Shown: positions 1-18,960 of the stretch, one piece after another
Numbering within the stretch: the first letter of the stretch is position 1
How the letters are laid out: each line of letters starts with the position of its first letter
Source of the DNA: Paraburkholderia phytofirmans PsJN
Lineage (GTDB): Bacteria; Pseudomonadota; Gammaproteobacteria; Burkholderiales; Burkholderiaceae
Assembly: GCF_000020125.1 (NCBI RefSeq)
Contig: NC_010681.1
Coordinates: 4,154,001-4,218,000, forward strand
DNA: 64,000 bases
Reading direction: 5' to 3'
Notes under the pieces: model-generated
Database searches by the model: none
Seen by the model: the letters and a program-made list of their open reading frames with translations, nothing else
What the model was told of the DNA's origin: nothing
Translations under genes and position numbers: made by a program

Positions 1-872
1 TTGGCTTGCGAGCCGTTCGCCACTGCAATGGGACTTGCGGGAAGGAAAGCGCTCGCTGCGCGCAGGTAACGATACCCTGCATACGCCTTCACCTGACCGA
101 ATTGATACGACGCAGCAGCGGACGCTCGACGCTCGGTGGCGGTGTTCGTTGCTGCAGTGTTGCTGTTGCGCTGTTCGTACACGGCGGTCGCAGCGAATGG
201 GCCTGTGGCATAGGTGAGTGTGCCACCGAAGTAGCGGCCGGTCAGCTCCGCCCCCGGCACTTCCGTACCGTAGCCCGTGTCGTAGCGCGTACTGTACATC
301 GCAGTTGCGGTCAACGGCCCGAACTTGCCGGTATACTTCGCGGAGTTATCGATACGCCCGGCGAACGCAGAGTCAACCGACAGAGTCGAGTAACGCGTCG
401 CTGCACCGAACGGGTCGAATGCGATAGCCTCTTCGAAGAGTAGCGAGTTTTGGCGCCCGAACGTCAACTGATGATTGTTGTACGCAAGCCCTACCCATGC
501 CTGTCGACCGAAAAGTCGCGAGGTGGTCGTGGCATTCGCACCGAGACCTTTGGTTGACTGGCCCAATGTACCGTCGTTGACGTTGAACCCGCTTTCAAGA
601 ACGAAGAGCGCCTTGAGGCCGCCGCCCAAGTCCTCTACGCCTCTCATGCCCCAGCGTGAGCCCGAGGAGTTCCCCGAGACTTCGCGGGTCACGGCACCGC
701 CCGAAGTCGTGTTATTCAGGTGTTCAATGCCGACATCCACAATGCCGTAAAGAGTGACACTACTTTGCGCGTTTGATTTAGCTGGCAAGCCCAAAAGGGC
801 AGCTGAAGCGGCGACCCCCATCACATACGCGGGATTTGCGAGGGCGTTCTTTTTTAGCTTCTTAAAAGGCAT
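1..872 (-). CDS. Gram-negative trimeric porin, C-terminus cut by window edge
   Basis: I translated this frame by hand on the minus strand. It runs open from an ATG at 872 to the window edge (about 290 codons; family members are usually 360-390). A signal peptide (MPFKKLKKNALANP, a hydrophobic stretch, then a cut after SNA) is followed by the mature start QSSVTLYGIVDVGIE, the hallmark of Burkholderiales OmpC-like porins (Gram_porin_4). Family blocks SGSRWGMRGVEDLGGGLKAL, FVLESGFNVNDG and LFGRQAWVGLAY follow, then alternating beta-strand sequence with many aromatic residues. It should form an outer-membrane trimeric diffusion channel. It lies downstream of the MFS gene on the same strand, 351 bases away, so it may supply outer-membrane entry for the same catabolic module; that link is inference. 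Confidence 0.93.
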   Translation of the reverse strand, partial: MPFKKLKKNALANPAYVMGVAASAALLGLPAKSNAQSSVTLYGIVDVGIEHLNNTTSGGAVTREVSGNSSGSRWGMRGVEDLGGGLKALFVLESGFNVNDGTLGQSTKGLGANATTTSRLFGRQAWVGLAYNNHQLTFGRQNSLLFEEAIAFDPFGAATRYSTLSVDSAFAGRIDNSAKYTGKFGPLTATAMYSTRYDTGYGTEVPGAELTGRYFGGTLTYATGPFAATAVYEQRNSNTAATNTATERRASAAASYQFGQVKAYAGYRYLRAASAFLPASPIAVANGSQA

Positions 873-1223
873 TTTTTCTCCAAACATTTTGATAATAGTT
901 ATGCGAGTAAATCTGTGGCTCGCCAATCGATAGGCACAGACGAGCCATCCCCGCTGCGGCATGACTAGGCCGGCAGACCAGGAAGTTGCCCTCGAGGCGC
1001 AGGGGCATGAGTGCTGTGTACAGCGGGTGCTTTGCGGGCTACGCTGCTACAACGAATCTCGGAGGAGGAAGGACCGCAAGATGAGCGTGCGTTGCGGATA
1101 CGTTGCTTGGAGTGGCCGAATAGCCGAGCAAACGAATACCCGCAAACGCACAGCTTTCGAGAACACCGAGGGGTGTTTCACGAACCCCTGTCGAATAAAA
1201 CTACTTCAGGCGGTTCAGTGAGC
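873..1223. other. intergenic stretch, no gene seen
   Basis: These 351 bases lie between the end of the MFS gene and the porin start, both on the minus strand. Short plus-strand frames here carry no recognisable protein pattern. The last 80 bases before the porin (an AT-rich stretch around 877-905) are the likely porin promoter, but I could not pick convincing -35 and -10 boxes. Confidence 0.4.
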
Positions 1224-2450
1224 TCAATTTATCGCCAATTCAAGTGAGCTGTTAGTCTCATTCGGAACCTTGAATACGAGCGCAGCGACCACCGACAAAA
1301 CTCCGACCCCAATGAGCAGATAGAAAGCTGAGAAGAATGCTCCATTTGCTGCTGTGATAAGGGCGCCCATAATTGCAGGGAAGATGGAGTTCGCCAGTTG
1401 ACCGCCGAAGTTCATAAGACCAGAGGTCTTCCCAATCAATTGCTCCGGTACCCGACGCAGCGGAGTGGCGAATACTGTGGCGTACACCAGATTGAACGAC
1501 AAGGAGAAGAGCGTCCAGTATGTAAGCAGCAGCCAAATTTGGGTGGTTGTAATCATAAGCACCAAGAAAACAGTGCTGAGAGCCGAGCCCGCGACCAAGC
1601 AACCCTTCTCAAAACGCTTATCGAGCTTGTCCAGGAAAAACCCGACCGTATTAGCGCCTGCGAACGCAATCAGGTTGGGCACGACCAGAGCAAGTCCGGC
1701 GTGCTTCAAGCTGATGTGATAGCTCGTCATGAGGTAGGTCGGCATCCACGAATTCACACCGACATGCAAGGCACTGGTGAAAAACCACACTGCCGTGAGC
1801 TTCCACGCCAAGGGGGATTGAAGAACTGGCTTCCAGGCGACGCGAGGACGCTCTACATCAGTCTTCTGCCGCGCTCGCTTATCGCCACGCAGACTGAACC
1901 AGAGAATGACAGCGACGGCGAAGCCGACAACAGACAGAATGTCGAACGCCCCACGCCACCCAAGCTTGGTAACGCTCGCTGCAATGATTGCTGAGCCAAC
2001 GGCACTGCCCAGAAACGTCGTGGAGACGAGAAAGGATTTGGCTCTCGCTCGTTGCTTCTTGGGGAACACTTCAGCGACCGTGACAGAACTCGCGGGCGAG
2101 AAGCTGCCTTCGCCGAGACCGAACATGAAGCGAATCACCAGCAGCGACGCAAACGACCACCCCAAGCTAGTCACGCCGGTGAAGATGGACCACATTACGA
2201 CGCACGCGACCACGACAATCCGGGAGCCGAACTTGTCGGACAGCCAGCCACCGGCTAACTGCATGATTGCGTAGCTGAAATAGAACGCGCTCAGAAGCAT
2301 GCCTCCCTCCTGAGCGGTGAGCATGAACTCCTTCGAGATTGGAACGAGCGCGACGCTCATCAGAATGCGGTCGGCGTAACCGACCGCCCACGCGAGGAAA
2401 AGACCTGCAATCACTGCGGTCTTCTGCGCTCGGCTGAATTTATCTCCCAT
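1224..2450 (-). CDS. MFS transporter, anion:cation symporter type
   Basis: A 408-residue inner-membrane carrier with about 12 hydrophobic segments. Visible family features are the first helix AVGYADRILMSVALVPIS, the loop 2-3 motif A signature GGWLSDKFGSRIVV and the conserved MFGLGEGSFSPASS, which place it in the ACS group (hexuronate, phthalate and tartrate-like anion carriers). The open frame extends to 2510, but the start at 2450 is preferred because GGAGAAGGTG sits directly upstream and the protein then begins MGDKFSRAQK. It is divergent from the M81 hydrolase gene, with a LysR-type operator between them at 2605-2621. Substrate is unknown; context suggests an N-acyl-D-amino acid, a peptide or a related organic anion. 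Confidence 0.9.
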   Translation of the reverse strand: MGDKFSRAQKTAVIAGLFLAWAVGYADRILMSVALVPISKEFMLTAQEGGMLLSAFYFSYAIMQLAGGWLSDKFGSRIVVVACVVMWSIFTGVTSLGWSFASLLVIRFMFGLGEGSFSPASSVTVAEVFPKKQRARAKSFLVSTTFLGSAVGSAIIAASVTKLGWRGAFDILSVVGFAVAVILWFSLRGDKRARQKTDVERPRVAWKPVLQSPLAWKLTAVWFFTSALHVGVNSWMPTYLMTSYHISLKHAGLALVVPNLIAFAGANTVGFFLDKLDKRFEKGCLVAGSALSTVFLVLMITTTQIWLLLTYWTLFSLSFNLVYATVFATPLRRVPEQLIGKTSGLMNFGGQLANSIFPAIMGALITAANGAFFSAFYLLIGVGVLSVVAALVFKVPNETNSSLELAIN

Positions 2451-2604
2451 CACCTTCTCCAATATATTTAGGGCCGGGGCTAGTTTGCTTACCACCACCC
2501 ACCCCTGCAATTTGCTTCGCCGGTATTACTGCGTCCAATGAAAAGAAATTGGGAGACATAGACTCAGGTTATATCGCGCCCGCTGCATAGCTTAGTCCCG
2601 ACCG

Positions 2605-2621
2605 CATAACCACAGGTTAAT
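2605..2621. promoter_or_regulatory. LysR-type operator CATAACC-ACA-GGTTAAT
   Basis: Dyad TAACC-N3-GGTTA, a perfect T-N11-A LysR box, between the divergent MFS and M81 genes. The same core recurs twice upstream of the OCD-family gene and dadA. A lone half-site, GGTTATA, lies at 2577-2583. Confidence 0.65.
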
Positions 2622-2743
2622 CCTCCCCTCGTATATTCAATTGTCGAGAACCGTCCGTACGTTCACACTTGGCTGCACACAGCGCGGATGCGCTTTCCAT
2701 TGGGGCGTCGCCGCCTTGTAGGGCGACCAAAATAGGGGGACTT

Positions 2744-4192
2744 ATGCGAGTTTTCACTGCAGGGATGGGGACAGAGACAAATACTTTTTCCCCAGTGCCG
2801 ACGGGACTTGATGCTTTTCGTGAACGCGGAATTTATCCTTCCGGGACACATCCAGACCGCATGTCGCGCTACGGCGCTCCCATGTTCATTGCTCGCGAGC
2901 GTGCTCGAAGCGAAGGCTGGACAGTTTTCGAAGGCCTTTACGCGGAAGCCCAGCCTGCGGGACTCGTCACGCGCGAGGCATACGAGAGCCTGCGGGATGA
3001 GCTTCTCTCTGACTTGAAAAGAGTGCTTCCTATCGATGTCGTGCTTCTTGGGCTGCACGGGGCGATGGTGGCCGACGGCTACGACGACTGCGAGGGTGAC
3101 CTCATCGCTCGCGTGCGTGAACTGGTGGGACCGAAGGCAATCATCGGCGCCGAACTCGACCCGCACGCGCACCTGAGCAAGGAAATGGTCGAGAGCGCAA
3201 CGTTGCTCATCGCTTACAAGGAATACCCTCACACGGACATCAAGGAGCGTGCGGTCGAACTGGTAGACCTTTGCGCACAAGCCTTTGCGGGAAAGATTCA
3301 TCCGGTCGCCGCCGTTGTCGACACGAAGATGGTCGTTCCGATTCACACCTCGCGAGACCCCGGCCGTAGCTTCGTCGACAAGCTGAGCGCGATGGAAGGC
3401 AAGAACGGGGTGCTTTCTCTTTCCGCCATCCAAGGGTTCGCCACCGGTGACGTACCGTCGATGGGTACTAAGGTCCTTGTCTACACGGACGGCGACAAGG
3501 CGGCGGCGCAGACGCTGGCAAAGGAATTGGCAGCCGAGCTTATTTCCCTGAGGGATAAGCTGCGCGTGAACTATCTGTCGGTGGACGAGGCGCTGGACAA
3601 GGCGCTGGAAGGAGGACCTACGCCGGCAATCCTGGCGGACCGAGCCGACAATCCTGGCAGCGGCGCGGCAGGCGATTCGACGTTCATCCTGAGACGGCTG
3701 CTCGAGCGCAAGATTTCCGACGTAGCGATTGGACCGCTCTGGGACCCGATTGCGATTCAAATGGCGTTCGGAGCGGGCGTTGGCGCCCGCATGCCGTTGC
3801 GCATTGGCGGGAAAATCAGCCCGATGTCCGGAGACCCGGTCGACGCCGTTTGTTTGGTGAAGGAATTGAGGCGCGGCCATGTCATGACCGCGCAAACTGG
3901 CGAACCCCTGAGCGTCGGCGACTCCGCGTTGATTGAAGTCGACGGCATCGAGTGCGTGCTGATTTCCGTCCGCGCTCAGGCAATCAACGTCGACCTTTTC
4001 ACGGGGTTGGGTTGCAATGTCGCCAGCAAGAAAATCGTGGTGGTTAAGTCGGCGCAGCATTTCTATGCATCGTTTTCGACCGTTTCGAAGCGAGTTCTTT
4101 ACGTGGGAGCGCCCGGCTCCGCGACGCCTCGATATGACCAGCTGACCTATCGTAAAGCCGAACTTCCAAAGTGGCCCATCACGCTCGACTGA
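2744..4192 (+). CDS. M81 family metallopeptidase (MlrC-like)
   Basis: 482 residues, close to the family norm of about 490. The N-terminus MRVFTAGMGTETNTFSPVPT is the classic MlrC start, followed by GLHGAMVADGYDDCEGDL and AELDPHAHLS (DUF1485 domain, putative metal ligands D and H) and the C-terminal domain opening with ADRADNPGSGAAGDST. An upstream in-frame extension to 2669 exists, but ATG 2744 has AGGGGGA at a good distance. MlrC of microcystin degraders cleaves linear peptide fragments rich in D-amino acids; most homologues are uncharacterised hydrolases. Here it sits beside an N-acyl-D-amino-acid deacylase and a D-amino-acid dehydrogenase, which fits release of D-residues from a peptide or lactam. 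Specificity is inference; family membership is clear. Confidence 0.9.
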   Translation: MRVFTAGMGTETNTFSPVPTGLDAFRERGIYPSGTHPDRMSRYGAPMFIARERARSEGWTVFEGLYAEAQPAGLVTREAYESLRDELLSDLKRVLPIDVVLLGLHGAMVADGYDDCEGDLIARVRELVGPKAIIGAELDPHAHLSKEMVESATLLIAYKEYPHTDIKERAVELVDLCAQAFAGKIHPVAAVVDTKMVVPIHTSRDPGRSFVDKLSAMEGKNGVLSLSAIQGFATGDVPSMGTKVLVYTDGDKAAAQTLAKELAAELISLRDKLRVNYLSVDEALDKALEGGPTPAILADRADNPGSGAAGDSTFILRRLLERKISDVAIGPLWDPIAIQMAFGAGVGARMPLRIGGKISPMSGDPVDAVCLVKELRRGHVMTAQTGEPLSVGDSALIEVDGIECVLISVRAQAINVDLFTGLGCNVASKKIVVVKSAQHFYASFSTVSKRVLYVGAPGSATPRYDQLTYRKAELPKWPITLD

Positions 4193-4499
4193 CAGCACCG
4201 CATTGCTGATGAAAGCGGTGGTCTCCGCCACCGCCTCGACCCGCCTGAAGATTCGAAACGCCTGCTTTCCGGCTAGCGCCGACCTCCAGGCGTACAGAAA
4301 CGCGACCAAGTATGTAAAAAAGGCAACGCATCCCAGATGCGTTTCCAGAATCTTTAAGGCTGGCACGTTCCACACGACAGTCAGCCCGTCGCCGCTGTGC
4401 AAGTCTACGTTCGGGTCGGTCCTTTGACCTCGATGTCCAGCAGCGGCGAACTCATTGACTTGCCGTGCGCGTCCAGCGCCAACGGACGCGTGACGCCGC

Positions 4500-5041
4500 C
4501 GCCAAGTGATACGCGCCGTGGTCGCGGGCGCGGTAAATGCATTGGTGCGCAACGATGAGGCCGACATCGGTCTAACAGACGGTGGCATACAGGATTCGAC
4601 ACTCGAAGTGCTTCACACGGGAACGGACCGTCTGGTCGCAGTCTTCCCGAAGACGCATTCGATGGCGAAACAACAAAAAAATTTGGCATCAGAGAGTTGC
4701 TGCGTTCGCCTCTTGTGCTCACCGCACCGGGCACCAGCGTAAGAGCAGTCGTCGATAGCGCGTTCGCCCAAACCGGCGAGCAACCAACGATTGCCAGCGA
4801 GACAACCTACACAATGACAGCCGTCGCGATGGTACGCGCGGGACTAGGTGTGGCAATCTTGCCTGAGTCAGCAAGAGAGCTGCGTGCCGAACCAGAACTC
4901 GTGACTAACGTGATTAAGCATCCCTCGTTCGTACGGCCAATTGCGCTCATAAAAAAGCGGGGCCGCACGCCTCCTCCAGTCACCGAGCCGTGTATTGCCC
5001 TGCTACGCGACGCGTTGGACGACGCCGCGCGCCACCGATGA
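4500..5041 (+). pseudogene. LysR regulator relic: substrate-binding half, frameshifted, no HTH
   Basis: Two pieces of one LysR substrate-binding domain lie in different frames. Piece one (to about 4670) reads NALVRNDEADIGLTDGG and TDRLVAVFPKTH. Piece two (about 4685-5041) reads SPLVLTAPGTSVRAVVDSAF and VAMVRAGLGVAILPESAREL. The switch falls at a run of seven A at 4674-4680, where one missing base would rejoin the frames. No helix-turn-helix is visible upstream: 4193-4499 has no recognisable coding pattern. It is a truncated relic next to an intact LysR gene, perhaps an older regulator of the same module. Confidence 0.75.
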
Positions 5042-5051
5042 AAGTCGGCGA

Positions 5052-5945
5052 TTACGACCTCCCCACGCGCTTAGCGAGTTGTTGCATGAACACCTTTAGT
5101 GCGTGAGTTCCAGCATTGCTCGCAGCGGTCATCACGCTAACCCCAATTGAGAAAGCAGGTTCGAGCTCCTTGACGAAACTGCGGTCTCCCATCCCTGTGG
5201 CGGTGTATTCGTCGATAATCGTGAAGCCTACGCCGCTCTCGGCCAGCGCGCGGGCAAGGTAGTAGGTCTTCACCTCAATCATGGGCGATACATCGTGCTT
5301 GTCGAGAGTCGCCAACGTGGCGCTTATTTTCAATCCGAGCGGGTCCGCGGAGTCGAGGCCAATCCACTTCGAGTAGTCCAGGTCACCGAGATGGACAGGA
5401 CTGAGGCCACTACCGGTTGTCCCATCGTTTGGACCAACAAACACTGCCTTGGCTTGCCCGAGTTCTTCGATGGTAATACCGGCCTTTGCTGTCGGTTCAA
5501 ACGCGATACCAACGTCGATTTCCTGTGCTAGCAACAGGGCCGAAAGGGTCTCGTTGTTTTCCGTTCGAATGTTTAGCGACACGTCGGGACAAAGGCCAGT
5601 GAACGCAGCGACTGCCTGTGGAACGAGACTGAGACCAAGGCTCGGGATGCACCCAATTCTCAGCATCCCGCCTGGATGTGAGGCGAGGTTGCGGGCCAGA
5701 TTCCGGACTCGCTCAAGGCTCAAGTGAAGAGATTTCGTCTCTTGAAACAACATGACGGCTTCGGGTGTGGCCTTGAGCCCGCCAGGCAATCGCTTGAACA
5801 GCGCGACACCGAGGCTGTGCTCGGCTTGCGCGAGCATTTTGCTCGCGGCCGGCTGAGAAATATTCAAGAGGTCAGCCGCTCCCGAGAGAGAGCCCGCCTG
5901 CATTACTGCATGGAAAACCTCGATGTGACGCAAGCGCATGGTCAT
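5052..5945 (-). CDS. LysR family transcriptional regulator
   Basis: 297 residues from ATG 5945 (ATG 5939 also fits). The N-terminal winged helix reads MRLRHIEVFHAVMQAGSLSG with the recognition segment ISQPAASKMLAQAEHSLG, followed by a type 2 periplasmic-binding-like effector domain (LRIGCIPSLGLSLVPQAVAA). The open frame extends upstream to 6050, but that leader does not look like LysR sequence. It is the last gene of the minus-strand run OCD-family gene, deacylase, lysR, and is the obvious candidate to bind the TAACC-N3-GGTTA operators in this module. In its effector domain it resembles regulators such as NocR/OccR/LrhA-type proteins only at a general level. The regulator role is near certain; targets are inferred from context. 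Confidence 0.9.
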   Translation of the reverse strand: MTMRLRHIEVFHAVMQAGSLSGAADLLNISQPAASKMLAQAEHSLGVALFKRLPGGLKATPEAVMLFQETKSLHLSLERVRNLARNLASHPGGMLRIGCIPSLGLSLVPQAVAAFTGLCPDVSLNIRTENNETLSALLLAQEIDVGIAFEPTAKAGITIEELGQAKAVFVGPNDGTTGSGLSPVHLGDLDYSKWIGLDSADPLGLKISATLATLDKHDVSPMIEVKTYYLARALAESGVGFTIIDEYTATGMGDRSFVKELEPAFSIGVSVMTAASNAGTHALKVFMQQLAKRVGRS

Positions 5946-6131
5946 GCTAGTGACGTGTTTAACTGTTGGCGAGACACCAGCTCCGAGCACCGAAGCAGGT
6001 GACCCAGCTACGCCGGCATAGTAACGTGGCTGATGGAAGTTTACTCCCATCAGCCACTCTGAACTCGCCGTTGAAGATGAGCAACTCTTCGCGGGACCGG
6101 GCCTCGGGGAGTTGGTGGGCTGATTTGCGAA

Positions 6132-7592
6132 CTATCGCTTCGTGCGAGTAATCACAGTGCCGTTTCGAGCGCCGAGATGGGCGCGCTGCTGCCACGTAAC
6201 AGTGCCATTCACGATGACATAGTCGATACCGTCTGCCGGCTCCTTGGGGTTATCGTAAGTGGCACGGTCCAGAACAGTGTTGGGGTCGAACACGACGACA
6301 TCGGCGTGGTTTCCGACCTCGAGGATTCCGCGCTGCTCAATCCCGAAATTCTGTGCTGTCAGGCCAGTCATTTTCCAGACTGCAGTCTCCAACGAGAAGA
6401 GTCCGAGCGTGCGACTGTAGTGACCAAGAACCCGAGGAAAGGTACCCCAGAGGCGTGGGTGCGGATTTTCTCCGGTAGGAAGACCGTCTGACCCAATCAT
6501 CGTCTCATCGAACGCCAGAATCCGCTGCACGTCGTGCTCGTCCATGCTGAAGTAGATGGCGCTTGCCGGCTGCAGCCGCTTCGACGCTTCAGACCTACTC
6601 ACGCCCCATTCTTCAGCGATGTCGCCGAGTTCCCGCCCGACAAGCTCTGGGTGAGTGCCGCTGCTCGCAATTCGAATCTTGCCTGTCAATCTGTCTTCGG
6701 CGAGGTGCAACATCGTCGAGCTTGCGTTGTAGGGGTAGCAATCGAGCGCTACGCACTGACATTTCATCGCGGCACGGATGAAAGGAAGCGTGATTGTCGA
6801 CTTTCCGAAATTCTGCTCGCGCATCAACTTGTGGTGGGACACTACCACTTTGACGTCTAGTGCTTTACCGATTGCAAAGGTCTCTTCGAGCGACTCAATG
6901 CTGCTATCGGCCTCGTTGCGCATATGCGTTGCGTACACGGCACCTGTTCCGGTCAGGGGCCGACAGACTTCGATGACTTCTTCCGTAGTGGCTGCTGCGG
7001 CCGGTGGATATGCCGTTCCAGTCGATATGCCGAGAGCGCCCGCATTGAGCGCTTCGGTCAGCAACTCTCGCATATCGGAAATCTCTGCGGAAGTCGCGGT
7101 GCGACTCAGGTCCGCCATGGTCCGCGCTCGAAGCGTGGTATGGCCTACCATAGGTGCAACGTTGACCGCACACGGCGCCGCGCGAAGTGCTTCGACGTAG
7201 TCGCTGAACGTTTGGAAGGACGTTCCATCCTGAGGTTTCTCTGGGACCAGCAAATTGAGCGGCGCGGGCACCGGCGAGTCCGCACGCAGCGGAGCGATAC
7301 TCACACCGCAGTTGCCTGTAACAACGGTCGTGACGCCTTGCGAAACCTTAGAGTCCATCGAAGGTAGGCGCAGGACTGCGGCGTCATCGTGAGTATGCGA
7401 GTCGATAAAGCCGGGCGATACTATCTTCCCTGAGGCGTCGAGAGTCGTTTTTGCGGCTTGGCCTCTCAAGTTTCCGATGGCGACGATACGACCGCCACGA
7501 ATACCGACATCCGCCTCGTAGCGCGGGCGCCGCGTCCCGTCGATGACCGTGCCACCAACAATCAACAAATCGAAGTCTTCAGCGACGGACAT
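6132..7592 (-). CDS. N-acyl-D-amino-acid deacylase (D-aminoacylase family amidohydrolase)
   Basis: 486 residues from ATG 7592; the frame is open further to 7667 without family sequence. It is an amidohydrolase-fold zinc enzyme that cleaves N-acyl-D-amino acids to the free D-amino acid and a carboxylate. Visible features are the N-terminal beta-sandwich strand DLLIVGGTVIDGTRRP, the metal motif GFIDSHTHDD (H66 and H68), the family block TTVVTGNCGVSIAP (Cys95, metal or structural in D-aminoacylases), YATHMRNEADS, VVSHHK and the late Asp in MIGSDGLP. It sits between the OCD-family gene and lysR, opposite dadA, so its product would feed DadA directly. A dihydropyrimidinase-like or other N-acyl substrate cannot be excluded. 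Confidence 0.88.
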   Translation of the reverse strand: MSVAEDFDLLIVGGTVIDGTRRPRYEADVGIRGGRIVAIGNLRGQAAKTTLDASGKIVSPGFIDSHTHDDAAVLRLPSMDSKVSQGVTTVVTGNCGVSIAPLRADSPVPAPLNLLVPEKPQDGTSFQTFSDYVEALRAAPCAVNVAPMVGHTTLRARTMADLSRTATSAEISDMRELLTEALNAGALGISTGTAYPPAAAATTEEVIEVCRPLTGTGAVYATHMRNEADSSIESLEETFAIGKALDVKVVVSHHKLMREQNFGKSTITLPFIRAAMKCQCVALDCYPYNASSTMLHLAEDRLTGKIRIASSGTHPELVGRELGDIAEEWGVSRSEASKRLQPASAIYFSMDEHDVQRILAFDETMIGSDGLPTGENPHPRLWGTFPRVLGHYSRTLGLFSLETAVWKMTGLTAQNFGIEQRGILEVGNHADVVVFDPNTVLDRATYDNPKEPADGIDYVIVNGTVTWQQRAHLGARNGTVITRTKR

Positions 7593-7676
7593 TCTCAGAG
7601 CCTCATTTTTCAGGTGACCGGCTGTCCACCGGCGGCCTATGAGACAGAGCGCGCCGCTGAACTCCACAAACGTGCC

Positions 7677-8588
7677 TTAAGCAGCAAGCTTCTTATAGAC
7701 CAAGGCAGAGAGAGCGACGTCCACAAGACCAACGCCAACGGACTTATATACGGTGATGCCTTTGGCTCGCTCTTGTCCCTCGGACGCAGCCAGGACAGGG
7801 CCCAACTCCTCAACCTTTGCCCAATCAACGATACCCTCCTTGGCCATCAGAAGGTCACCTGCTTCTTTCTGCGCTTGCTCTTTCAGTTCGACGATGACAC
7901 GGCTCGCACGTTCAAGTGTCGTGTCGTCAATCTCGCGTGTTTGCGGCTTGCTTGACCCGATTGCAGCCACGAAGACGTTGGGCTTCAGGAGAGCGCCGTC
8001 GAAAATCGGAGTCGGACTACGCGTGCAGGTGACGAGCACATCTGCCTGCGACACCGCAGACTGGATGTCTTCGGTCAAAAACTCGACATCCGGATGACTA
8101 GCTCTGAATTTTGAGGCGAGTTGCTCGCCATCGCCTTTGCTGACAATGTAGACGCGCTTGAACACGCCAATCTCAAGCAGAGCTGCGATGTGCGCTTTTG
8201 CCTGCACCCCAGCACCAAACACCGTGAGGGTACTCGCGTTTTCCGGGAGTTGTGCCTCGACAGCCACGCGGGTGGTTGCAGCGGTGCGGAACTCTGTAAG
8301 GGCATTGCCCTGGATGCTTGCGAGATAGCGTCCGTCCTTCGTATCGAAGAGAACGACTACAAAGTCGAACTTGCCTGCCAGCGTTGAATAGACCTTCGCG
8401 CCGCACACCTCCGCGTCCGTGACAATCCCGCCCATCACGCTGAGGGTCACATTGTCTAATTGCTTACGACTTCTTTGCAGCGAGACTGCGCGACCCCGTG
8501 CGTCCGCGAGAAACGCATCGCGCACGACCGAACTACTCTCGTTGAGGGTAAGGGCGCCGCGGACCTGTTCATCGGTAATCAGTTTCAT
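7677..8588 (-). CDS. ornithine cyclodeaminase / mu-crystallin family protein
   Basis: 303 residues from ATG 8588 (MKLITDEQVRG). An ATG at 8594 with a GGAG further upstream, or the open frame to 8624, are alternatives. The Rossmann signature LTVFGAGVQAKAHIAALLEI, the substrate-side segments GGIVTDAEVCGAKVYS and ALTEFRTAATT and the downstream VFVAAIGSSKPQTREID are typical of the OCD/mu-crystallin family. Members are ornithine cyclodeaminases, alanine dehydrogenases or NAD(P)H-dependent reductases of cyclic and linear imines (ketimines, delta1-pyrroline-2-carboxylate). Beside a D-amino-acid dehydrogenase that makes imino acids, a ketimine reductase turning the imine into the L-amino acid is the attractive reading. 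That would give a D-to-L inversion route; this is inference. It is probably the first gene of the operon that includes the deacylase. Confidence 0.85.
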   Translation of the reverse strand: MKLITDEQVRGALTLNESSSVVRDAFLADARGRAVSLQRSRKQLDNVTLSVMGGIVTDAEVCGAKVYSTLAGKFDFVVVLFDTKDGRYLASIQGNALTEFRTAATTRVAVEAQLPENASTLTVFGAGVQAKAHIAALLEIGVFKRVYIVSKGDGEQLASKFRASHPDVEFLTEDIQSAVSQADVLVTCTRSPTPIFDGALLKPNVFVAAIGSSKPQTREIDDTTLERASRVIVELKEQAQKEAGDLLMAKEGIVDWAKVEELGPVLAASEGQERAKGITVYKSVGVGLVDVALSALVYKKLAA

Positions 8589-8698
8589 GTGCATGCGTTG
8601 GCTTAACTCCAGACAGTCAACCAACTTTCCTAAAAGTTATGTCGAGTCTGATTGTTTCCCGTGAGAACCAAGCAGTCTAATGCAATTTTTTAGTTCGA

Positions 8699-8715
8699 CA
8701 TAACCTGCGGTTATG
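8699..8715. promoter_or_regulatory. perfect LysR-type palindrome CATAACC-TGC-GGTTATG
   Basis: A 7-3-7 perfect inverted repeat, about 110 bases upstream of the OCD-family start, in the 328-base divergent gap (8589-8916) before dadA. It contains the T-N11-A LysR core TAACC-N3-GGTTA. Nothing else in this gap looks coding. Confidence 0.7.
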
Positions 8716-8794
8716 CGCAGCCTCCCTGCGTAGACGACGCATCAATTGCCAAATAGTGGGCAACGCGTCGTACATCCAGACAAGAGCTCCTGCA

Positions 8795-8811
8795 CTTAAC
8801 CATGGGTTATG
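8795..8811. promoter_or_regulatory. second LysR-type operator CTTAACC-ATG-GGTTATG
   Basis: One mismatch from a perfect 7-3-7 dyad, with the same TAACC-N3-GGTTA core as 8699-8715. The two centres are 96 bases apart. It lies about 105 bases before the dadA start, so the two sites may serve the two divergent promoters. Confidence 0.65.
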
Positions 8812-8916
8812 TCCTGCGTCGAATTCTCAATTGCGACGACTGCCGAACCTTCCCATACTGGATTTATCTCGGGATTGACACGACCCCGCAGCAAATCGAA
8901 CCATTTTGGGAATTGA

Positions 8917-10206
8917 ATGACAATGCATGTCTGTGTGCTCGGCGGCGGAGTTGTTGGTGTGACTACTGCCTACTTTCTGGCTCGCGAAGGCTATCAGGTG
9001 ACGGTAGTCGAAAAACACACGCAGGCAGCTGCTGAAGCAAGCTTCGCGAACGGCGGCCAGCTCAGCTACAGCTACGTTGCGCCTCTGGCTGGGCCATCGG
9101 TACTGAGCCATCTTCCAGGTTGGCTGTTGAGCCGCACCGCGCCGCTTCGTTTTCGCCCCAGCCTCGATGTTGACCAATGGAAATGGTGCTGCGAGTTTCT
9201 TCGACATTGCACGAGTGCGCGCAGCCGACAAACGACCGTCGAACTACTGAGGCTCGGTGCCTACAGCCGGACAGTGATGCAGGAGCTGATGACGAACGAA
9301 TCGCTCGACTTTGCCTTCAACAAGAGCGGAAAACTCGTCGTCTACCGCAACGCCGAGGATTTTGCGGGCGCGCGCAAGCAAATGGATTTCCAGGCCGGGT
9401 TTGGCGTCGAGCAGTCGGCACTCGATGCCGATGCATGCATTGCCGTCGAGCCGGCTCTGGAAAGCATCCACCAAAAGCTCGTTGGCGGCATCTACACCGC
9501 ATCAGAGGAAGCCGGTGACTGCCATCTTTTCACTCGAGAACTCAGCCGATTGGCGACCGAAAAGTATGGCGTGCGCTTTCTCTTTGGGACGCAATTGCAC
9601 GGGCTGAGGCAGGAGAGTGGCAAAGTGGTGGCTGCTCAAACCTCAGAAGGCGACATCATCGCGGACGACTACATTGTCGCGCTTGGCAACGGTAGCCCAA
9701 ATCTCCTCCATCCACTCGGTATCAATCTGACCATGTATCCGCTCAAGGGATACAGCCTTACCGTACCAGTGAACCTTGGCAACGTAGCACCGAAGGTCAG
9801 TGTGACTGACCTCCATCACAAAATCGTATACGCTCGCCTCGGCGACCAGCTCCGCATTGCAGGCATGGTCGATATGACGCCTGCCGGTTCGAAAGAAGAC
9901 TCTGCGCGAATTCGCCTGTTGCAGTCGCAAGCGCAAGCTACGATGCCAAACGCCGGCGACTTTTCGGCGACGCAGATTTGGACGGGGTCTCGCCCGACCA
10001 CACCTGATAGCAAACCCCTTCTCGGAGCCACTCGTTTCCCCAATCTTTGGCTCAATACCGGCCAAGGCTCCCTTGGTTTCACCCTCGCCGCTGCCAGTGC
10101 GAAATTGGTCACAGACGCCGTTCGAGGCCGAACGACTCGAATCGACATCTCGCCTTATCAGCTCGCAGGCAGAAACGAAGCACGGACATACGAGTTCGCC
10201 ATCTAA
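8917..10206 (+). CDS. FAD-dependent D-amino-acid dehydrogenase (DadA-like)
   Basis: 429 residues, as expected for DadA (about 430). The N-terminal FAD-binding motif CVLGGGVVGVTTAYFLAREG is followed by the DadA block EASFANGGQLSYSYVAPLAG. The C-terminal flavin segment reads GSRPTTPDSKPLLGATRFPN, then LWLNTGQGSLGFTLAAASAK. The enzyme oxidises D-amino acids to imino acids and passes electrons to the membrane quinone pool. The start is ATG 8917 or ATG 8923 (MHVCVLGG). It is followed 25 bases later by ridA on the same strand, and faces the OCD-family and deacylase genes across a gap holding two LysR boxes. Burkholderiales usually carry a separate housekeeping dadA; this copy looks like a module-specific paralogue. 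Confidence 0.9.
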   Translation: MTMHVCVLGGGVVGVTTAYFLAREGYQVTVVEKHTQAAAEASFANGGQLSYSYVAPLAGPSVLSHLPGWLLSRTAPLRFRPSLDVDQWKWCCEFLRHCTSARSRQTTVELLRLGAYSRTVMQELMTNESLDFAFNKSGKLVVYRNAEDFAGARKQMDFQAGFGVEQSALDADACIAVEPALESIHQKLVGGIYTASEEAGDCHLFTRELSRLATEKYGVRFLFGTQLHGLRQESGKVVAAQTSEGDIIADDYIVALGNGSPNLLHPLGINLTMYPLKGYSLTVPVNLGNVAPKVSVTDLHHKIVYARLGDQLRIAGMVDMTPAGSKEDSARIRLLQSQAQATMPNAGDFSATQIWTGSRPTTPDSKPLLGATRFPNLWLNTGQGSLGFTLAAASAKLVTDAVRGRTTRIDISPYQLAGRNEARTYEFAI

Positions 10207-10231
10207 GCTTCGAGACAGGGACCACTGAACC

Positions 10232-10585
10232 ATGGGTAACGAGATTCAGCGATTGCAAACAAACGCTCGCATGAGCCAAGTTGTTGTGGCGCGCGGTACG
10301 GTGTATCTGTCGGGCCAGGTACCCCACACGCCCAATGCCTCAATCGAAATTCAGACGACAGAAGTGCTCGACCGTATCGACAAACTGCTCGAGACCGAGG
10401 GCATTGACAAGACTCGACTTCTGACTGCGAACATCTGGTTGAGTAGCCCCGAGCATTTCGCTGAATTCAATGGTGTCTGGGATGCCTGGGTTGCGGAAGG
10501 CACTGCGCCGACGCGCGCATGCGTCACATCGCTGCTCATGCGCAAGGGGCTTGATGTGGAGATTGCTGTCACGGCGCTCGCTTAG
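10232..10585 (+). CDS. RidA/YjgF family imine deaminase
   Basis: 117 residues. Family segments are VVARGTVYLSGQVP near the N-terminus and TRACVTSLLMRKGLDVEIAV at the C-terminus, with the conserved Arg that binds the substrate carboxylate (TRACV, about residue 92) and a following Glu (VEIAV). RidA proteins hydrolyse reactive enamine/imine intermediates to 2-oxo acids plus ammonia. Placed directly after dadA, it would clear the imino acid that DadA produces. Pairing of dadA with ridA is a recurring arrangement. Confidence 0.92.
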   Translation: MGNEIQRLQTNARMSQVVVARGTVYLSGQVPHTPNASIEIQTTEVLDRIDKLLETEGIDKTRLLTANIWLSSPEHFAEFNGVWDAWVAEGTAPTRACVTSLLMRKGLDVEIAVTALA

Positions 10586-11320
10586 TTGCTCCAGTGGACG
10601 TGTACATTAAGCCGCGAATACGCCTCACGAAAGATTGCGACATCCGGTCTGACGCCTGACGTGGCGCTGAGTCGCGCCGAAAAGGGCGTGAAGTTGAAGG
10701 TCGACGCCGGCGAGTGGGAGTTCTCGCAGCGCGAGGTCGCGTGGGTCATGAAGCGCACGCGGGAACTGTCGCCCTCGAGCGACGATTAGCCGAGCGCTGC
10801 CGTAGGCGCCACGCCGCGCGCCGGGCGCTCCACGGCAACCGCCACCACCCCATCGGCCACTGCGGCGCGCACACCCCCCGAAAACCCTGTACTCACCTTC
10901 CTACGTTTCAACGCGTCTCCTCAGCGTTCATCCTGTTTTTCGAGTGATGCCCCTTGGTGAAGTTGAGCCCCGCCTTATCCTGAGCGAGGCCTTCAGACAC
11001 GTTCCAAACATCATTAAGATGCCCCTCGGAGCCAGCGTCGCCCGTCAGCCGTTCGCCTCAGGGCGCTAACTTCGCCACCCTGTCCGGTATCTCAAGGCTA
11101 TCCCACAGTACCGGCTGTCCCGCGACTGCTGCCGTTGATGTCCGAACAGTCGCGCGGCCGCACCGAGGAACGGGCAGCAGTATGTATACCGCGCGACAGG
11201 GGTGATGATTTTCGATTTGGAGACCGTGTTCGCAAACCTCGCCGTGTGCTGGGGAGATTTTCCAGAAAAATATTTTGGCGGACTGGCGGAGCGCGTGTGC
11301 GACCCTCGACGAACAGTTCG
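10586..11320. other. 735-base gap at the left edge of the accessory island
   Basis: A frame at 10586-10789 (TTG start) ends with the protein-like stretch GEWEFSQREVAWVMKRTREL but has no good start or recognised family; it may be a gene fragment. The rest (10800-11320) shows no recognisable coding sequence, tRNA or clear repeat. The change in base composition after ridA suggests the island boundary lies here. Confidence 0.3.
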
Positions 11321-11521
11321 TCAACGACTTCCGCGAGGCGCAGCGTTGCCACGCCCACCGCCTGACGGATTTCCAGTCGTGCTCGGCCAGTTACCGCCGG
11401 AAGAGCCACTTCCCGACCGGCCACCACTCCCGGCTGATTTGGCCCCGCTGGACGAGCCCTTCGATGCACCGCCCGAGTTGCCGCGCGCGCCGCCTTGGCT
11501 GCCGCCTGTTCCTTTGCTCAT
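11321..11521 (-). CDS. small Gly/Ser-rich disordered protein
   Basis: 66 residues beginning MSKGTGGSQGGARGNSGGAS and made almost wholly of Gly, Ser, Ala, Arg and Asn, so predicted disordered. The start at 11521 is supported by GAGGGCGGCG immediately upstream. The opposite strand reads as a proline-rich frame, which is the expected shadow of Gly-rich coding DNA. Function is unknown; similar short disordered proteins occur in Burkholderia accessory regions. No close partner gene is on the same strand. Confidence 0.45.
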   Translation of the reverse strand: MSKGTGGSQGGARGNSGGASKGSSSGAKSAGSGGRSGSGSSGGNWPSTTGNPSGGGRGNAAPRGSR

Positions 11522-11674
11522 CGCCGCCCTCATTGAAATTTGGGGTAATACCAGCCGCGTCCGATGAGTCCGATTGCGCATCGGAATCGAGACCATCACA
11601 ACAAGATACCTCTCAGGGCGTCGCTTCGGCGCATCCTTGGATAATCTAGTCGGCGAGAACGCAGACGCTCCAGC

Positions 11675-11887
11675 TCAGGCGAAGCGCCGGCGGGCATAGC
11701 TGCCTAGCAGCTGCGCGTGAGCTCTATCTGCGTCGAAAACTATCGATTCCATCTGTTCGCCAAGTTGCGCAAAGCGTCGGTTCGCTTGCCTGAAGGCATC
11801 GCGAACGCCGGTCAACGCGACGCACACAGCACGCAGTTCGATGTTGGTCCGGTCGGTCAGGTCTGCGCAGACACGAACCCCTTCCAA
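11675..11887 (-). CDS. hypothetical protein, divergent from the LexA-like gene
   Basis: The reading frame encodes a plausible helical, charged protein (CADLTDRTNIELRAVCVAL, AFRQANRRFAQLGEQ). Its only start codon is TTG 11887, giving 70 residues, while protein-like sequence (DAEAHDYETLDEAKLEG) continues upstream without ATG or GTG. Either the start is unusual or the gene has lost its 5' end. No family recognised. It shares the promoter gap with the LexA-like gene. Confidence 0.3.
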   Translation of the reverse strand: MEGVRVCADLTDRTNIELRAVCVALTGVRDAFRQANRRFAQLGEQMESIVFDADRAHAQLLGSYARRRFA

Positions 11888-11982
11888 CTTCGCTTCGTCC
11901 AGCGTCTCGTAGTCATGTGCTTCTGCGTCGAGTCGAGTGAAGCAGGCGGCCGCAACCTCATTCGAGTGCGCGGCAGATGCGC

Positions 11983-12009
11983 TACAATGCTATCGAATGA
12001 ACGTTCGAT
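11983..12009 (+). promoter_or_regulatory. -10 box and palindromic operator of the LexA-like gene
   Basis: TACAAT at 11983-11988 is a good -10 box; a weak -35 (TTCGAG, 11961-11966) lies 16 bases upstream. The perfect inverted repeat ATCGAA-N6-TTCGAT at 11992-12009 covers the expected transcription start, a natural autorepression site. It does not match the common CTGT-N8-ACAG LexA box. Confidence 0.5.
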
Positions 12010-12020
12010 GGGTCGAGCAA

Positions 12021-12596
12021 ATGAACGACGAAACGCACTTGGCCGCTCTACGTAGTTATTGGAAGCGACATCAGACCTTTCCAGCGATGTCGAAACTCTG
12101 CGATGTCGTTGGCCTAACAAGCACGAGCAGCATCTTCGCCCTTATCAAAAGGCTATCCGAGGCGGGCTTCCTCGAACGAGTCGAAGGTCGCATCGCGCCG
12201 ACGCGCCGTTTTTTCGGTCGCCCCGTGCTCGGCGCCGTCCGAGCCGGTCAGCCCCAGCCTGAGGGGCAGGAACCGCCGGAACTGCTGACTATCGACGATT
12301 ACCTCGTTGATGACCCAAACAGAACAGTGCTCTGCCGGGTGCGAGGTGAGTCGATGCGAGATGTCGGTCTTCTGGACGGAGACTTGGTGGTCGTCGAGAA
12401 GAATCGGCCGACTCGTCCTGGCGACATCGTCGTTGCGGTCGTCGATGGCGAGATGACCGTGAAGACTCTGCGTCTCGACAAGAATGGTGCGTATTATCTC
12501 GAGCCCGCTAATCAGGACTTTCAGGTGATTCGACCGCAGGGGTCGCTTGAGATAGTTGGTGTTGTAGTCGGCTCTGTTCGCAAGTACGGCCGTTAA
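12021..12596 (+). CDS. LexA-like autocleaving repressor (S24 peptidase), second-copy type
   Basis: 191 residues from ATG 12021 (an in-frame ATG at 11997 lies inside the operator palindrome and is less likely). The N-terminal winged helix resembles LexA (WKRHQTFPAMSKLCDVVGLT, then SSIFALIKRLSEAGFLER). A linker with an Ala-Gly cleavage pair (GAVRAGQPQP, A75-G76) is followed by the S24 domain with nucleophile Ser111 (RGESMRDVGLLDGD) and catalytic Lys148 (DGEMTVKTLRL). It should repress DNA-damage-inducible genes and self-cleave with RecA. No umuC or imuB partner is adjacent, so it is not a UmuD; it more likely governs this island. Neighbour: an unknown gene 102 bases downstream on the same strand. 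Confidence 0.85.
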   Translation: MNDETHLAALRSYWKRHQTFPAMSKLCDVVGLTSTSSIFALIKRLSEAGFLERVEGRIAPTRRFFGRPVLGAVRAGQPQPEGQEPPELLTIDDYLVDDPNRTVLCRVRGESMRDVGLLDGDLVVVEKNRPTRPGDIVVAVVDGEMTVKTLRLDKNGAYYLEPANQDFQVIRPQGSLEIVGVVVGSVRKYGR

Positions 12597-12698
12597 CCCA
12601 CGAGGCCTATCGGATGTCCTCTAGCGCGGCAACCAACCTTCAGACCTCGCTGTCGGTATGAGACGCATAAACAGCAAATGAGCTTTCGGTAGAAAAGA

Positions 12699-13376
12699 AT
12701 GACGGACTTCGTGCTAACAATGCTCAACTCGGTGATGAGCGACGGATTGAGCGCTGAGAAATTTGCAGCAGCCAGTTCGGCGTCTGCTCTCGCAGCAGAA
12801 ACACTGAAAGGCGTAATGAAACGACGCCATGCGACTGCCGTGCGAATCCTTCTCGAGGAGCTGAAGGCTGGGAAAACGACTCCAAGCGACAGCGATGTTC
12901 CTGAGGTGATAGCTGCTCTATTCCGATTTCAACGCGCGGCTGAGGAAGGGGCTGCCAGACTCAATCTTCGGCTGATGGGGGCGGTCTTCGCCGGACAGGT
13001 TGTCCATCGGTCAATGACGGCGGACGAATTTCTATATCTGGCAGATATTCTCGCCCCACTTAAACGGGAAGAAGTCATTCTGCTCGGCACGTTCGCACGA
13101 CTCTGCGAGGATGGCGGACCAGCGTTAGAGCCGCGCGATTTGCAGCTCCGCGCAATCCAAGAGCTCGTACCCGATGTTTTCGACAACGTTGATGCCTTCA
13201 TGGCGACAGCCGGCGCTTTGCTGCGAACAGGGTTCGTGATGGCAAGTGTCCCTCCTACGAACTACGCAGCTCAAATGAGCGGGTTCATTTACCGTCCCAC
13301 GCATCTTTTAAGTCGACTCAGCGGGCTCTTGGACATTGAAGGCGTCGTCAAGCGCCACGAGGCGGACCAGAGTTAG
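12699..13376 (+). CDS. hypothetical protein, mostly helical
   Basis: 225 residues, no family I recognise. The N-terminal third is Ala/Ser-rich (FAAASSASALAAETLKGV) and could insert in or lie on a membrane. The middle is amphipathic helix (VIAALFRFQRAAEEGAARLN, then EFLYLADILAPLKREEVILL). No catalytic motif stands out. It follows the LexA-like gene on the same strand at 102 bases and may be co-regulated by it; it ends 161 bases before the DUF5131 gene. Confidence 0.7.
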   Translation: MTDFVLTMLNSVMSDGLSAEKFAAASSASALAAETLKGVMKRRHATAVRILLEELKAGKTTPSDSDVPEVIAALFRFQRAAEEGAARLNLRLMGAVFAGQVVHRSMTADEFLYLADILAPLKREEVILLGTFARLCEDGGPALEPRDLQLRAIQELVPDVFDNVDAFMATAGALLRTGFVMASVPPTNYAAQMSGFIYRPTHLLSRLSGLLDIEGVVKRHEADQS

Positions 13377-13537
13377 CATAAACGCAGTCAATACCCATCA
13401 AGCCGCGGCCGGACACATAGAACGGCGACGACAATATGACAGCGGCGTATTTCAGTTAGTACATGATGGAAGCATGGCTATCGCTTCCGGGCTGAAAGAA
13501 GCTGGATAGAATCGCACTCTACAAGAGAGGTCGACCA

Positions 13538-14287
13538 ATGAGTGGCGGGCAAAGCAAAATTGAATGGACGGAACGCACGTGGAACCCAACGGTCGGGTGC
13601 ACGAAAATCTCCCAAGGCTGCAAGAACTGTTATGCGGAGGGAATGGCCAAGCGTCTCAAGGCCATGGGCACTCCAGGTTACGAGAACGGTTTTCGTCTCA
13701 CGTTGTTACCGAATCGGCTTGAAGAGCCGCAGAAGCGGAAGAGCCCGACAGTCTATTTCGTGAACTCGATGTCGGACCTCTTCCATCAGTCTGTCTCAGA
13801 CGCGTTCGTTAATGAGGTGTTTGACTCCATAAGAGCCTGCCCCCAGCACACTTTCCAAATTCTCACGAAGCGTGCTGAGAGGTTGGCGACCTACTGCAGC
13901 CGACATGAAATACCTCAAAATGCCTGGCTAGGCGTATCTGTCGAAGACCGCCGCCACGGCGTCCCACGCATCGAACACCTCAGAAGCGTCACAGGACGCA
14001 TCCGGTTCCTCTCTGTAGAGCCACTTCTGGAGGACCTTGGGACGCTTGACCTCAGCAACATAGACTGGGTCATCGTAGGGGGTGAGTCTGGTCCCAAGGC
14101 TCGACCAATGAATGAGCAGTGGGTCCGCCGAGTGAAGGTCCAGTGTGAGGACCAAGGCGTCAAATTCTTCTTCAAGCAGTGGGGTGCCTGGGGGACCGAC
14201 GGAGTTCGTCGCTCCAAGAAGGCGAATGGCCGTCTCCTCGACGGCCAGACATGGGACGACATGCCAGAGCGACTGTGTTCCGCCTGA
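13538..14287 (+). CDS. DUF5131 / phage Gp37-Gp68 family, three-Cys-motif protein
   Basis: 249 residues, full length for the family. It starts KIEWTERTWNPTVGCTKISQ, and the cluster C21-x6-C28-x2-C31 (GCTKISQGCKNCYAEGMAKR) gives the family its three-Cys name. Further blocks are VYFVNSMSDLFHQSV, FQILTKRAERL, WLGVSVEDRR, RFLSVEPLLEDLG and WVIVGGESGPKARPM. The Cys cluster and barrel-like strands recall radical-SAM or metal-binding enzymes, but the activity is unknown. GAGAGGTCG precedes the ATG. Family members occur in phages and accessory islands, usually next to a three-Cys-motif partner (TcmP); here a TcmP gene converges on it with only 7 bases between stops. Confidence 0.88.
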   Translation: MSGGQSKIEWTERTWNPTVGCTKISQGCKNCYAEGMAKRLKAMGTPGYENGFRLTLLPNRLEEPQKRKSPTVYFVNSMSDLFHQSVSDAFVNEVFDSIRACPQHTFQILTKRAERLATYCSRHEIPQNAWLGVSVEDRRHGVPRIEHLRSVTGRIRFLSVEPLLEDLGTLDLSNIDWVIVGGESGPKARPMNEQWVRRVKVQCEDQGVKFFFKQWGAWGTDGVRRSKKANGRLLDGQTWDDMPERLCSA

Positions 14288-14294
14288 GAAACCA

Positions 14295-15572: not shown

Positions 15573-15611
15573 GGATATTTTGATGGGCCTTGTTTTTTGC
15601 AAGATTAGCAG

Positions 15612-15629
15612 GTTTACCCCCTTGTAAAC
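15612..15629. promoter_or_regulatory. palindrome GTTTAC-N6-GTAAAC in the divergent tcmP promoter region
   Basis: A perfect 6-6-6 inverted repeat in the 113-base gap between two divergent tcmP genes, 40 bases from the first start. A second small dyad, GTTG-TTACG-CAAC, lies at 15667-15679. They are likely regulator sites controlling both genes. Confidence 0.45.
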
Positions 15630-15685
15630 GGCACGTTGCCGTATTATTTGAATCCCCAATACACGCGTTGTTACGCAACAAAAGC

Positions 15686-16522
15686 GTGAAAAATACAGAA
15701 TCTGAGAAACCGGTCTACGACCCGGTAGACGGCCTTCCCGTGATGAAGGTCGGTGCGTGGTCGGAACTGAAGCACATCGCCTTGTCCCGTTACGTTGACT
15801 CCGCCCGGGGCGCCCGGGCGAGATGGGGCTACACCTCATTTATCGACCTCTTTTGCGGGCCCGGCCGCGTCATCAACCGGGAAACGAAAGAGATGTTGGA
15901 CGGTGGCGTCCTCACCGCGTGGAAAATGTCCGCGCGCGGCCAAGGCCCGTTCAGCCAAGTGTTTATCGGTGACCTCGACGGCGACGCGGTCGATGCCTGC
16001 GAGCGCCGGTTGGTTGCAGCTAATGCACCGGTCCGCTCCTTCGTCGGTAGCGCGATTCAGACCGTCGACACGGTGATGGCAGAGTTGCCACACGGTTTGC
16101 ATTTCGCCTATCTCGACCCGTTCAGCATCGAGCAGCTGGACTTCGAGCTCATCCGCAAGCTCTCGTCACAGCGTCACATCGACATCCTGATTCACTTCAG
16201 CGTGATGGACGTGCAGCGCAATATCGGCGGCGATTTCAAGTTGAGCAGCTCGCGCCTGGATGCAGCAGCGCCCGGGTGGCGTGATGCGCTCAAGCTCGAC
16301 GTATTACCTAAGCGCGAGCATGTCGGGGCATACCTGGAGTACTGGGAGTCGCTCGTGGTCGAGCTGGCCCGCATGCAGGTGTCGGCGAATAAGCCGCTGT
16401 TCGTGAACGCAAATCGCGGCCCGCTGTATCGCCTGATTCACCTCAGTCGCCATGAGCTGCCGCAAAAACTCTGGAATGACGCGGCGTTGCCTAAGTCGAC
16501 CCAGCAAAGGCTTCCGTTCTGA
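15686..16522 (+). CDS. tcmP: three-Cys-motif partner protein TcmP (second, divergent copy)
   Basis: About 278 residues from GTG 15686; ATG 15742 (MKVGAWSELK) and upstream TTG codons are alternatives. The TcmP pattern is clear: VGAWSELKHIALSRYV, TSFIDLFCGPGRV (motif I like a methyltransferase), VFIGDLDGDAVDACERRL (acidic second strand) and HFAYLDPFSIEQL. It is shorter than the first copy and too different in sequence to be a recent duplicate. It ends 187 bases before the AvcD-type deaminase on the same strand, so those two may share transcription. Confidence 0.82.
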   Translation: MKNTESEKPVYDPVDGLPVMKVGAWSELKHIALSRYVDSARGARARWGYTSFIDLFCGPGRVINRETKEMLDGGVLTAWKMSARGQGPFSQVFIGDLDGDAVDACERRLVAANAPVRSFVGSAIQTVDTVMAELPHGLHFAYLDPFSIEQLDFELIRKLSSQRHIDILIHFSVMDVQRNIGGDFKLSSSRLDAAAPGWRDALKLDVLPKREHVGAYLEYWESLVVELARMQVSANKPLFVNANRGPLYRLIHLSRHELPQKLWNDAALPKSTQQRLPF

Positions 16523-18344: not shown

Positions 18345-18359
18345 CCCTGCGAGGAAGAC

Positions 18360-18575: not shown

Positions 18576-18617
18576 TTTCAGTGTCCATGCATGTTCATGG
18601 CACGAACACGATGCTAG

Positions 18618-18915: not shown

Positions 18916-18960
18916 GCCCTTGGAGTTGAAAAGCTCGGGTACATGGAGGTCGCTATTATG

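Follow-up and report, generated by a model that had tools for sequence, protein, structure and literature searches.

Genes and predicted operators of the module

The window analysed here, a stretch of 64,000 nucleotides from the genome of Paraburkholderia phytofirmans PsJN (contig NC_010681.1, positions 4,154,001 to 4,218,000), contains in its first part a putative D-amino-acid module whose promoters share one predicted operator. The module comprises genes for an MFS transporter (1224–2450, minus strand, ATG at 2450; PF07690 MFS_1, E = 2.5e-56; 81% identical in the Pandoraea module described below), an M81/MlrC-like metallopeptidase (2744–4192, plus strand; PF07364, E = 1.2e-92, and PF07171, E = 2.2e-51), a LysR-type regulator (5052–5945, minus strand), an amidohydrolase (6132–7592, minus strand; PF07969, E = 4e-35), for which the label N-acyl-D-amino-acid-deacylase-like is taken from an earlier note on this DNA, an OCD/mu-crystallin family reductase (7677–8588, minus strand; PF02423, E = 1.6e-36), the D-amino acid dehydrogenase DadA (8917–10206, plus strand; PF01266, E = 2.3e-66; NCBIfam NF001933, 502.7 bits with a cut-off of 383) and, 25 base pairs (bp) behind dadA, a RidA-like protein (10232–10585, plus strand; PF01042, E = 1.1e-23). 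The gene names given in that note (MFS, M81/MlrC-like, LysR, amidohydrolase, OCD, DAO/dadA and RidA) are correct at the family level. The regulator gene is intact, as had been claimed: both LysR domains were matched (PF00126 HTH_1, 64.7 bits; PF03466 LysR_substrate, 99 bits), and the protein, 297 amino acids (aa) long, fits the LysR-type layout of an N-terminal HTH_1 domain plus LysR_substrate in about 300 aa. It is likely to activate a local regulon with four promoters, whose genes would serve to take up and break down D-amino acids.

The word TAACC-N3-GGTTA occurs exactly at 2607–2619, 8701–8713 and 8797–8809 and at no other place in the window. The three matches are the cores of the 17-mers listed in the earlier note, and all contain the T-N11-A element of promoters controlled by LysR-type transcriptional regulators (LTTRs). 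One of them lies within 8699–8715, a perfect 7-3-7 palindrome (14/14) as described there; the remaining matches reach 12/14 and 13/14. Dinucleotide shuffling gives an expectation of 0.01 exact words, and none of 100 shuffles contained three. The scan of the whole genome (8.21 Mb) that had been proposed as a check returned five exact places, three of them in the window, compared with one for a backward-read control, so that the motif is not frequent genome-wide. One of the two outside places (L054) adjoins an open reading frame that, from its sequence, we take to be gnd-like; the other (L055, 7939–7951) immediately precedes the gene of a distant LysR protein.

A single operator repeated in two divergent promoter regions had been proposed, and the sites were confirmed; their number was not, as there are four operators rather than three. 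The one that had been missed is a degenerate site at 2559–2571 (TAACCTGAGTCTA, 8/10, minus strand), 48 bp from the exact site at 2607–2619, which keeps the T and the A of T-N11-A. When each of the four operators is read toward its assigned gene, a hexamer resembling a −35 box begins 28 bp from the centre, and one resembling a −10 box follows after a 17-bp spacer (+28/+51). For MFS, the degenerate operator (centre 2565) is followed by TGGACG (2537–2532) and CAAATT (2514–2509), giving a predicted promoter at 2509–2537 on the minus strand that scores 7 of 12 consensus positions. The predicted M81 promoter (2641–2669, plus strand, 7/12) consists of TTGTCG (2641–2646) and CACACT (2664–2669) and follows the exact operator centred at 2613. 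In the other region, the operator within the palindrome (8701–8713, minus strand) precedes the predicted OCD promoter (8651–8679, minus strand; TAGACT at 8679–8674, AACAAT at 8656–8651; 8/12), and the operator at 8797–8809 (plus strand) precedes that of dadA (8831–8859, plus strand; TTGCGA at 8831–8836, CATACT at 8854–8859; 8/12). The exact site at 2607–2619 has no +28 promoter when read toward MFS, in the window or in Pandoraea, and the weaker site was therefore assigned to this gene.

Promoter geometry and the sign of control

Scores of 7–8, as found at the four sites in the expected direction, are reached with a probability of 0.005 per direction at random positions of the window. The genome has 38 places with at most one mismatch to the word. 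Three are the exact module sites and 32 were scored, two places elsewhere and one at 26274–26286 in the window being left out; among these 32 places, considered as possible further members of the regulon, only one (L256) reached 7/12.

The geometry is conserved among dadA promoters. From 57 anchored promoters, 19 representatives with less than 75% identity were aligned, leaving out a repeat of genome G091 (L107) and G041, in which the site is shifted by one base. The operator columns, a TTG at +28 to +30 (19/19) and A.ACT at +52 to +56 (kept in 17–18 of 19) stand at fixed distances without gaps against a weakly conserved background, and the promoter-proximal operator half, GGTTAT, is the better conserved one. 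For the 15 representatives that were scored (the other four come from genomes without a LysR of at least 44% identity), the mean consensus score is highest at +28, with 7.13 of 12 (z 4.5 over offsets). Nine MFS, M81 and OCD promoters, which were picked by hand and include the close relatives L103 and L036, average 7.67 at the same offset (z 4.8), and each is best there (7–8/12). A TAGACG/AACAAT pair occupies the same place before OCD in L103 and L105 and before MFS in L036.

With transcription starts placed roughly 7 bp beyond the −10 box, as predicted from the hexamers, the operator centres would lie near −63. According to one study, the primary LTTR site is a T-N11-A palindrome centred near −65 (PMC4834489); the predicted centre would thus fall about where LysR-type primary sites lie. 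The same study also mentions LTTRs that repress, and hexamers say nothing on the sign of control. It nevertheless appears rather improbable that the four sites are repressor operators, or that LysR represses the four promoters until an inducer arrives, since some 21 bp separate the operator end from the predicted −35, which is the activator position, and the poor hexamers suit activation.

Rearranged modules in related genomes

Searches seeded with the local LysR protein in named genomes yielded 49 loci, seven of them at least 56% identical. Promoters of the same cluster were compared between relatives, as the earlier note had suggested, and the sites proved to be conserved: where the module is rearranged, in Paraburkholderia, Pandoraea and Caballeronia, each divergent promoter has one or two of them. 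Pandoraea eparura (L105) has two sites (9/10 and 8/10) between MFS on one side and M81 and lysR on the other, and two more between dadA and OCD. In P. bryophila (L103), two sites separate dadA and the deacylase gene from OCD, MFS and lysR, and in P. phosphatilytica (L107) two sites separate MFS from dadA, M81 and lysR. In Paraburkholderia sp. BL21I4N1 (L102), dadA and MFS are separated by a 9/10 and an 8/10 site, and the hexamers are seen at the L102 site aligned as G108. Caballeronia hypogeia (L106) shows the classical divergent layout, with one site between dadA and lysR; read toward lysR, this site lacks the hexamers. Of the orientations compared, the only others without them are those of the M81-side site read toward MFS in the window and in L105. 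The spacing of paired sites, centre to centre, is 48 bp for MFS/M81 in both the window and L105; for MFS/dadA it is 48 bp in L107, 74 in L036 and 109 in L229, and for OCD/dadA 96 bp in the window, 86 in L103 and 29 in L105.

The classical LTTR layout, in which a divergent lysR and a site between the genes lead to autorepression, is not found in the window, where no site of at least 9/10 adjoins lysR and the gene lies downstream on the OCD strand. A position behind the operator-promoter on the same strand is found in seven of the eight module loci with a LysR of at least 56% identity (the window, L036, L229, L102, L103, L105 and L107). Consequently, LysR could boost rather than repress its own gene. 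Such positive feedback is possible, as is a separate lysR promoter in the gap of 66–238 bp that lies between lysR and the preceding matched gene in these seven loci. Among more distant regulators, of 45–47% identity, lysR is not behind a site, and no site of at least 8/10 was present within 300 bp upstream of lysR in any of the 15 relatives.

Co-occurrence of the operator and the regulator

Co-occurrence was counted within the genus, in 144 genomes including that of the window. A LysR ortholog of at least 44% identity is present in 52 of them (E ≤ 5.4e-67; next match 4.8e-55), and dadA, at E ≤ 1e-110, in 79. These gave 85 dadA matches, one of which (G126) was not counted, its locus ending 37 bp upstream. 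A site of at least 9/10 lies 60–150 bp upstream of dadA for 48 of the 52 matches with a LysR ortholog in the genome versus 4 of the 32 without (Fisher 6.3e-14), and an exact site for 36 of 52 versus none of 32 (Fisher 1.5e-11), p-values that are too small because the genomes share ancestry. When only dadA matches of at least 55% identity are considered, the counts are 30/31 versus 3/7 for the relaxed site (p = 0.0022) and 24/31 versus 0/7 for the exact one (p = 0.00027). Where a genome has a second copy of dadA that lacks the site (G000:C1 and G127:C3), this copy was counted as a miss; in G066 the LysR gene lies at a contig edge and there is no dadA match. Loci L102, L103, L104 and L107 seem to come from genomes G108, G068, G131 and G091, respectively, and were counted once. 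The Caballeronia site falls outside the 60–150 bp limit and was used only in the comparison of operator orientation. As a side observation, five of the 85 dadA matches (G084, G028, G124, G070 and G100) are interrupted by a single in-frame stop within the part matched.

The association of the site with the LysR ortholog holds also where dadA is not linked to lysR. In a first sample of 58 genomes, an exact site stands between lysR and dadA in seven, and L051 is an eighth case with one mismatch; in all seven genomes of that sample that have a 45–47% LysR with neither dadA nor a site in the fetched stretch, an exact site precedes a dadA elsewhere. When pairs from the linked and unlinked groups were compared, the LysR proteins were 76–78% alike and the DadA proteins 60–62%. 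The regulator therefore seems to stay the same even where the dadA lineage is a different one. Across the LysR clade, the helix-turn-helix region is alike.

Four genomes without a LysR of at least 44% identity carry a changed site before dadA, its distance from an unchanged −35 box being preserved, with one change in G087, G122 and G040:C82 and two in G099, as would be expected if the regulator had been lost. Decay of the operator after regulator loss is only suggested by these cases, because 14 of the 50 dadA matches (at least 50% identity) in LysR genomes are likewise not exact and G040 has two LysR relatives of 38–40%. The arrangement of operator centre, 28 bp, −35, 17 bp and −10 is found in both dadA lineages, linked or unlinked. 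We tentatively suggest, as a reading that could well prove wrong, that the operator together with its promoter makes up a rigid cassette, portable and under one LysR clade, around which the genes reshuffle and dadA lineages differ, and whose operator decays once the regulator is lost.

The same core beside other genes

Outside the window, the 58-genome sample contains 49 exact sites: 14 precede dadA, a further 14 precede a different LysR-like gene, and the remaining 21 precede neither. The LysR-adjacent cores (L055, L064, L065, L066, L068, L070, L072, L076, L082, L085, L088, L090, L091 and L093) stand 3–102 bp upstream of genes for distant LysR-like proteins, which indicates that the core is a word used by several LTTR subfamilies. 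The implication of the earlier note that one operator means one regulator is thus too strong. These sites also bear on the question of whether another LysR-type protein, for example one encoded at G000:C1 beside the site TAACCAATGGTTA, binds the operators of the module, the local LysR being incidental or sharing control. The distance from the exact core to the other LysR-like gene downstream of it is at most 200 bp, L055 of this very genome included, but the L055 protein is only 20% identical to the local LysR, and 12 of the 14 sites (the exceptions being L090 and L091) score at most 6 at +28/+51 in both directions. As the site before dadA, moreover, tracks the local LysR ortholog with lysR linked or unlinked, control by another protein is unlikely.

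From the group of 21 exact sites with neither type of gene next to them, seven were scored for geometry. The best promoter of those scored, TTGCCA/AATACT (9/12), adjoins L090:9385–9397. A group of sites of the form TAACC-TAT-GGTTA (or its reverse complement) with common flanks in five genomes (L071, L078, L079, L080 and L089) was considered and set aside, as the four that were scored have no +28 promoter; a gene with a bacterial-collagen domain is present in the two loci looked at (L071 and L080), and an Flp gene in L071. Likewise rejected was the perfect palindrome TAACCTCAGGTTA of G052 (L063:5005–5017), which scores 5 and is located between VipB- and VasE-type genes of type VI secretion; it has matching flanks, and G052 also carries a lysR-dadA pair.

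A number of observations, besides the shared ancestry of the genomes and the four sites of at least 9/10 without a LysR ortholog, weigh against an activator regulon under the local LysR. The presence of the core before distant LysR genes, one of them in this genome, makes cross-binding or control by another LysR possible. The degenerate MFS operator scores 7 on both strands. Conservation was followed in two genomes for the M81 promoter and in three for that of OCD. No module adjoins lysR in Trinickia soli (L101; LysR 85%, contig ending beside lysR) or in BCC1884 (L104; LysR 75%), the latter having a 9/10 site before an unlinked dadA (G131). The distant relatives L233 and L234, with LysR proteins of 34–38% and a similar gene set, have 9/10 sites and show no convincing +28 promoter toward MFS (scores 5 and 4). 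Finally, the 38 places with at most one mismatch compare with 81 for the backward control, so that by itself only the exact word is informative as regards rarity. That one-mismatch forms are no commoner than the control would suit a chance repeat without function, an explanation that is hardly credible given three exact copies in the window for 0.01 expected and the conservation and geometry seen in dozens of genomes.

Proposed mechanism and comparison with known systems

We favour a regulon under the local LysR, probably as its activator, as the exact motif is rare genome-wide, the sites are conserved in orthologous clusters and the site follows the LysR ortholog; the D-amino-acid LysR regulon put forward in the earlier note is supported in this form. 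In the proposed mechanism, part of a LysR tetramer would sit on the inverted repeat TTAACC-N3-GGTTAT, about 63 bp upstream of each predicted start, and the rest would reach toward the −35 region. The inducer would probably be a D-amino acid or a close derivative, and inducer-bound LysR would help the polymerase at four weak promoters, those of MFS, M81, OCD(-deacylase-lysR) and dadA-ridA. The prediction, made from sequence, is well supported and describes a gene switch of a rather classical type. All six of the genes MFS, M81, deacylase, OCD, dadA and ridA had been assigned to the regulon; MFS, M81, OCD and dadA have one operator-promoter each, and the deacylase and ridA genes would belong to it by their position behind OCD and dadA. 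No site of at least 9/10 lies beside the amidohydrolase gene at 6132–7592, which is probably part of the OCD operon.

The dguRABC genes of Pseudomonas aeruginosa reportedly serve the use of D-Glu and D-Gln, as He et al. are said to have described in 2014; dguA presumably encodes a dehydrogenase resembling DadA, and dguB a protein of the RidA type. We know of no M81, OCD or MFS genes and no four-promoter layout for dguRABC. A further study states that DguR regulates the dguA promoter (PMC10926688), and to that extent the system resembles the module, in which a LysR-type protein is likewise proposed to control promoters for D-amino-acid catabolism. ThnR of tetralin degradation is one LTTR that activates two close divergent promoters, each from its own sites (PMC4834489). 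The layout predicted for the window is alike in giving each of two close divergent promoters a separate site. The ThnR pathway is unrelated, and cooperative looping is shown for it; the window has two such regions, 6 kb apart.

The best NCBIfam model for the local LysR is PRK11013, which we take to represent E. coli LysR, with a score (150.3 of 288 bits) below the cut-off. The E. coli protein, the lysA regulator, is 34% identical to the local one over 262 aa, and its genes lysA and lysR are divergent and concern lysine biosynthesis, unlike the module. As a source of the motif E. coli LysR was rejected, as lysA-lysR contains no TAACC-N3-GGTTA-like site (best 6/10). The kind of system, an activator-type LysR regulon, is known, and this member is new. 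Among the literature matches listed, which leave most subscription journals outside coverage, there was no description of the operator or the gene set, and a plasmid collection searched with the cluster gave no match.

The analysis provides a predicted operator, a promoter map and a regulator for a D-amino-acid catabolic module in Paraburkholderia and its neighbours, in which an M81 peptidase and an OCD reductase may have a role. The operator may also serve as a means of finding unknown genes of the pathway. With the various gene orders now in hand, hypotheses on how a simple LysR regulon evolves can be put to the test.

Sequences around the module

A remnant LysR substrate-binding domain (4697–5041; PF03466, E = 3.9e-18) lies between M81 and the intact lysR; it is weakly similar to E. 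coli LysR and has no match to the local LysR at E ≤ 1. The GC content is 0.57–0.58 in positions 1–20000 of the window and 0.60–0.66 in 20001–64000, and from the lower value in the first 20 kb the module may have been acquired. Next to it, the region 11937–16522 encodes an S24/LexA-like protein, a DUF5131 protein and a GMT-wHTH protein, a neighbourhood that, judged by eye, looks mobile- or defence-like.

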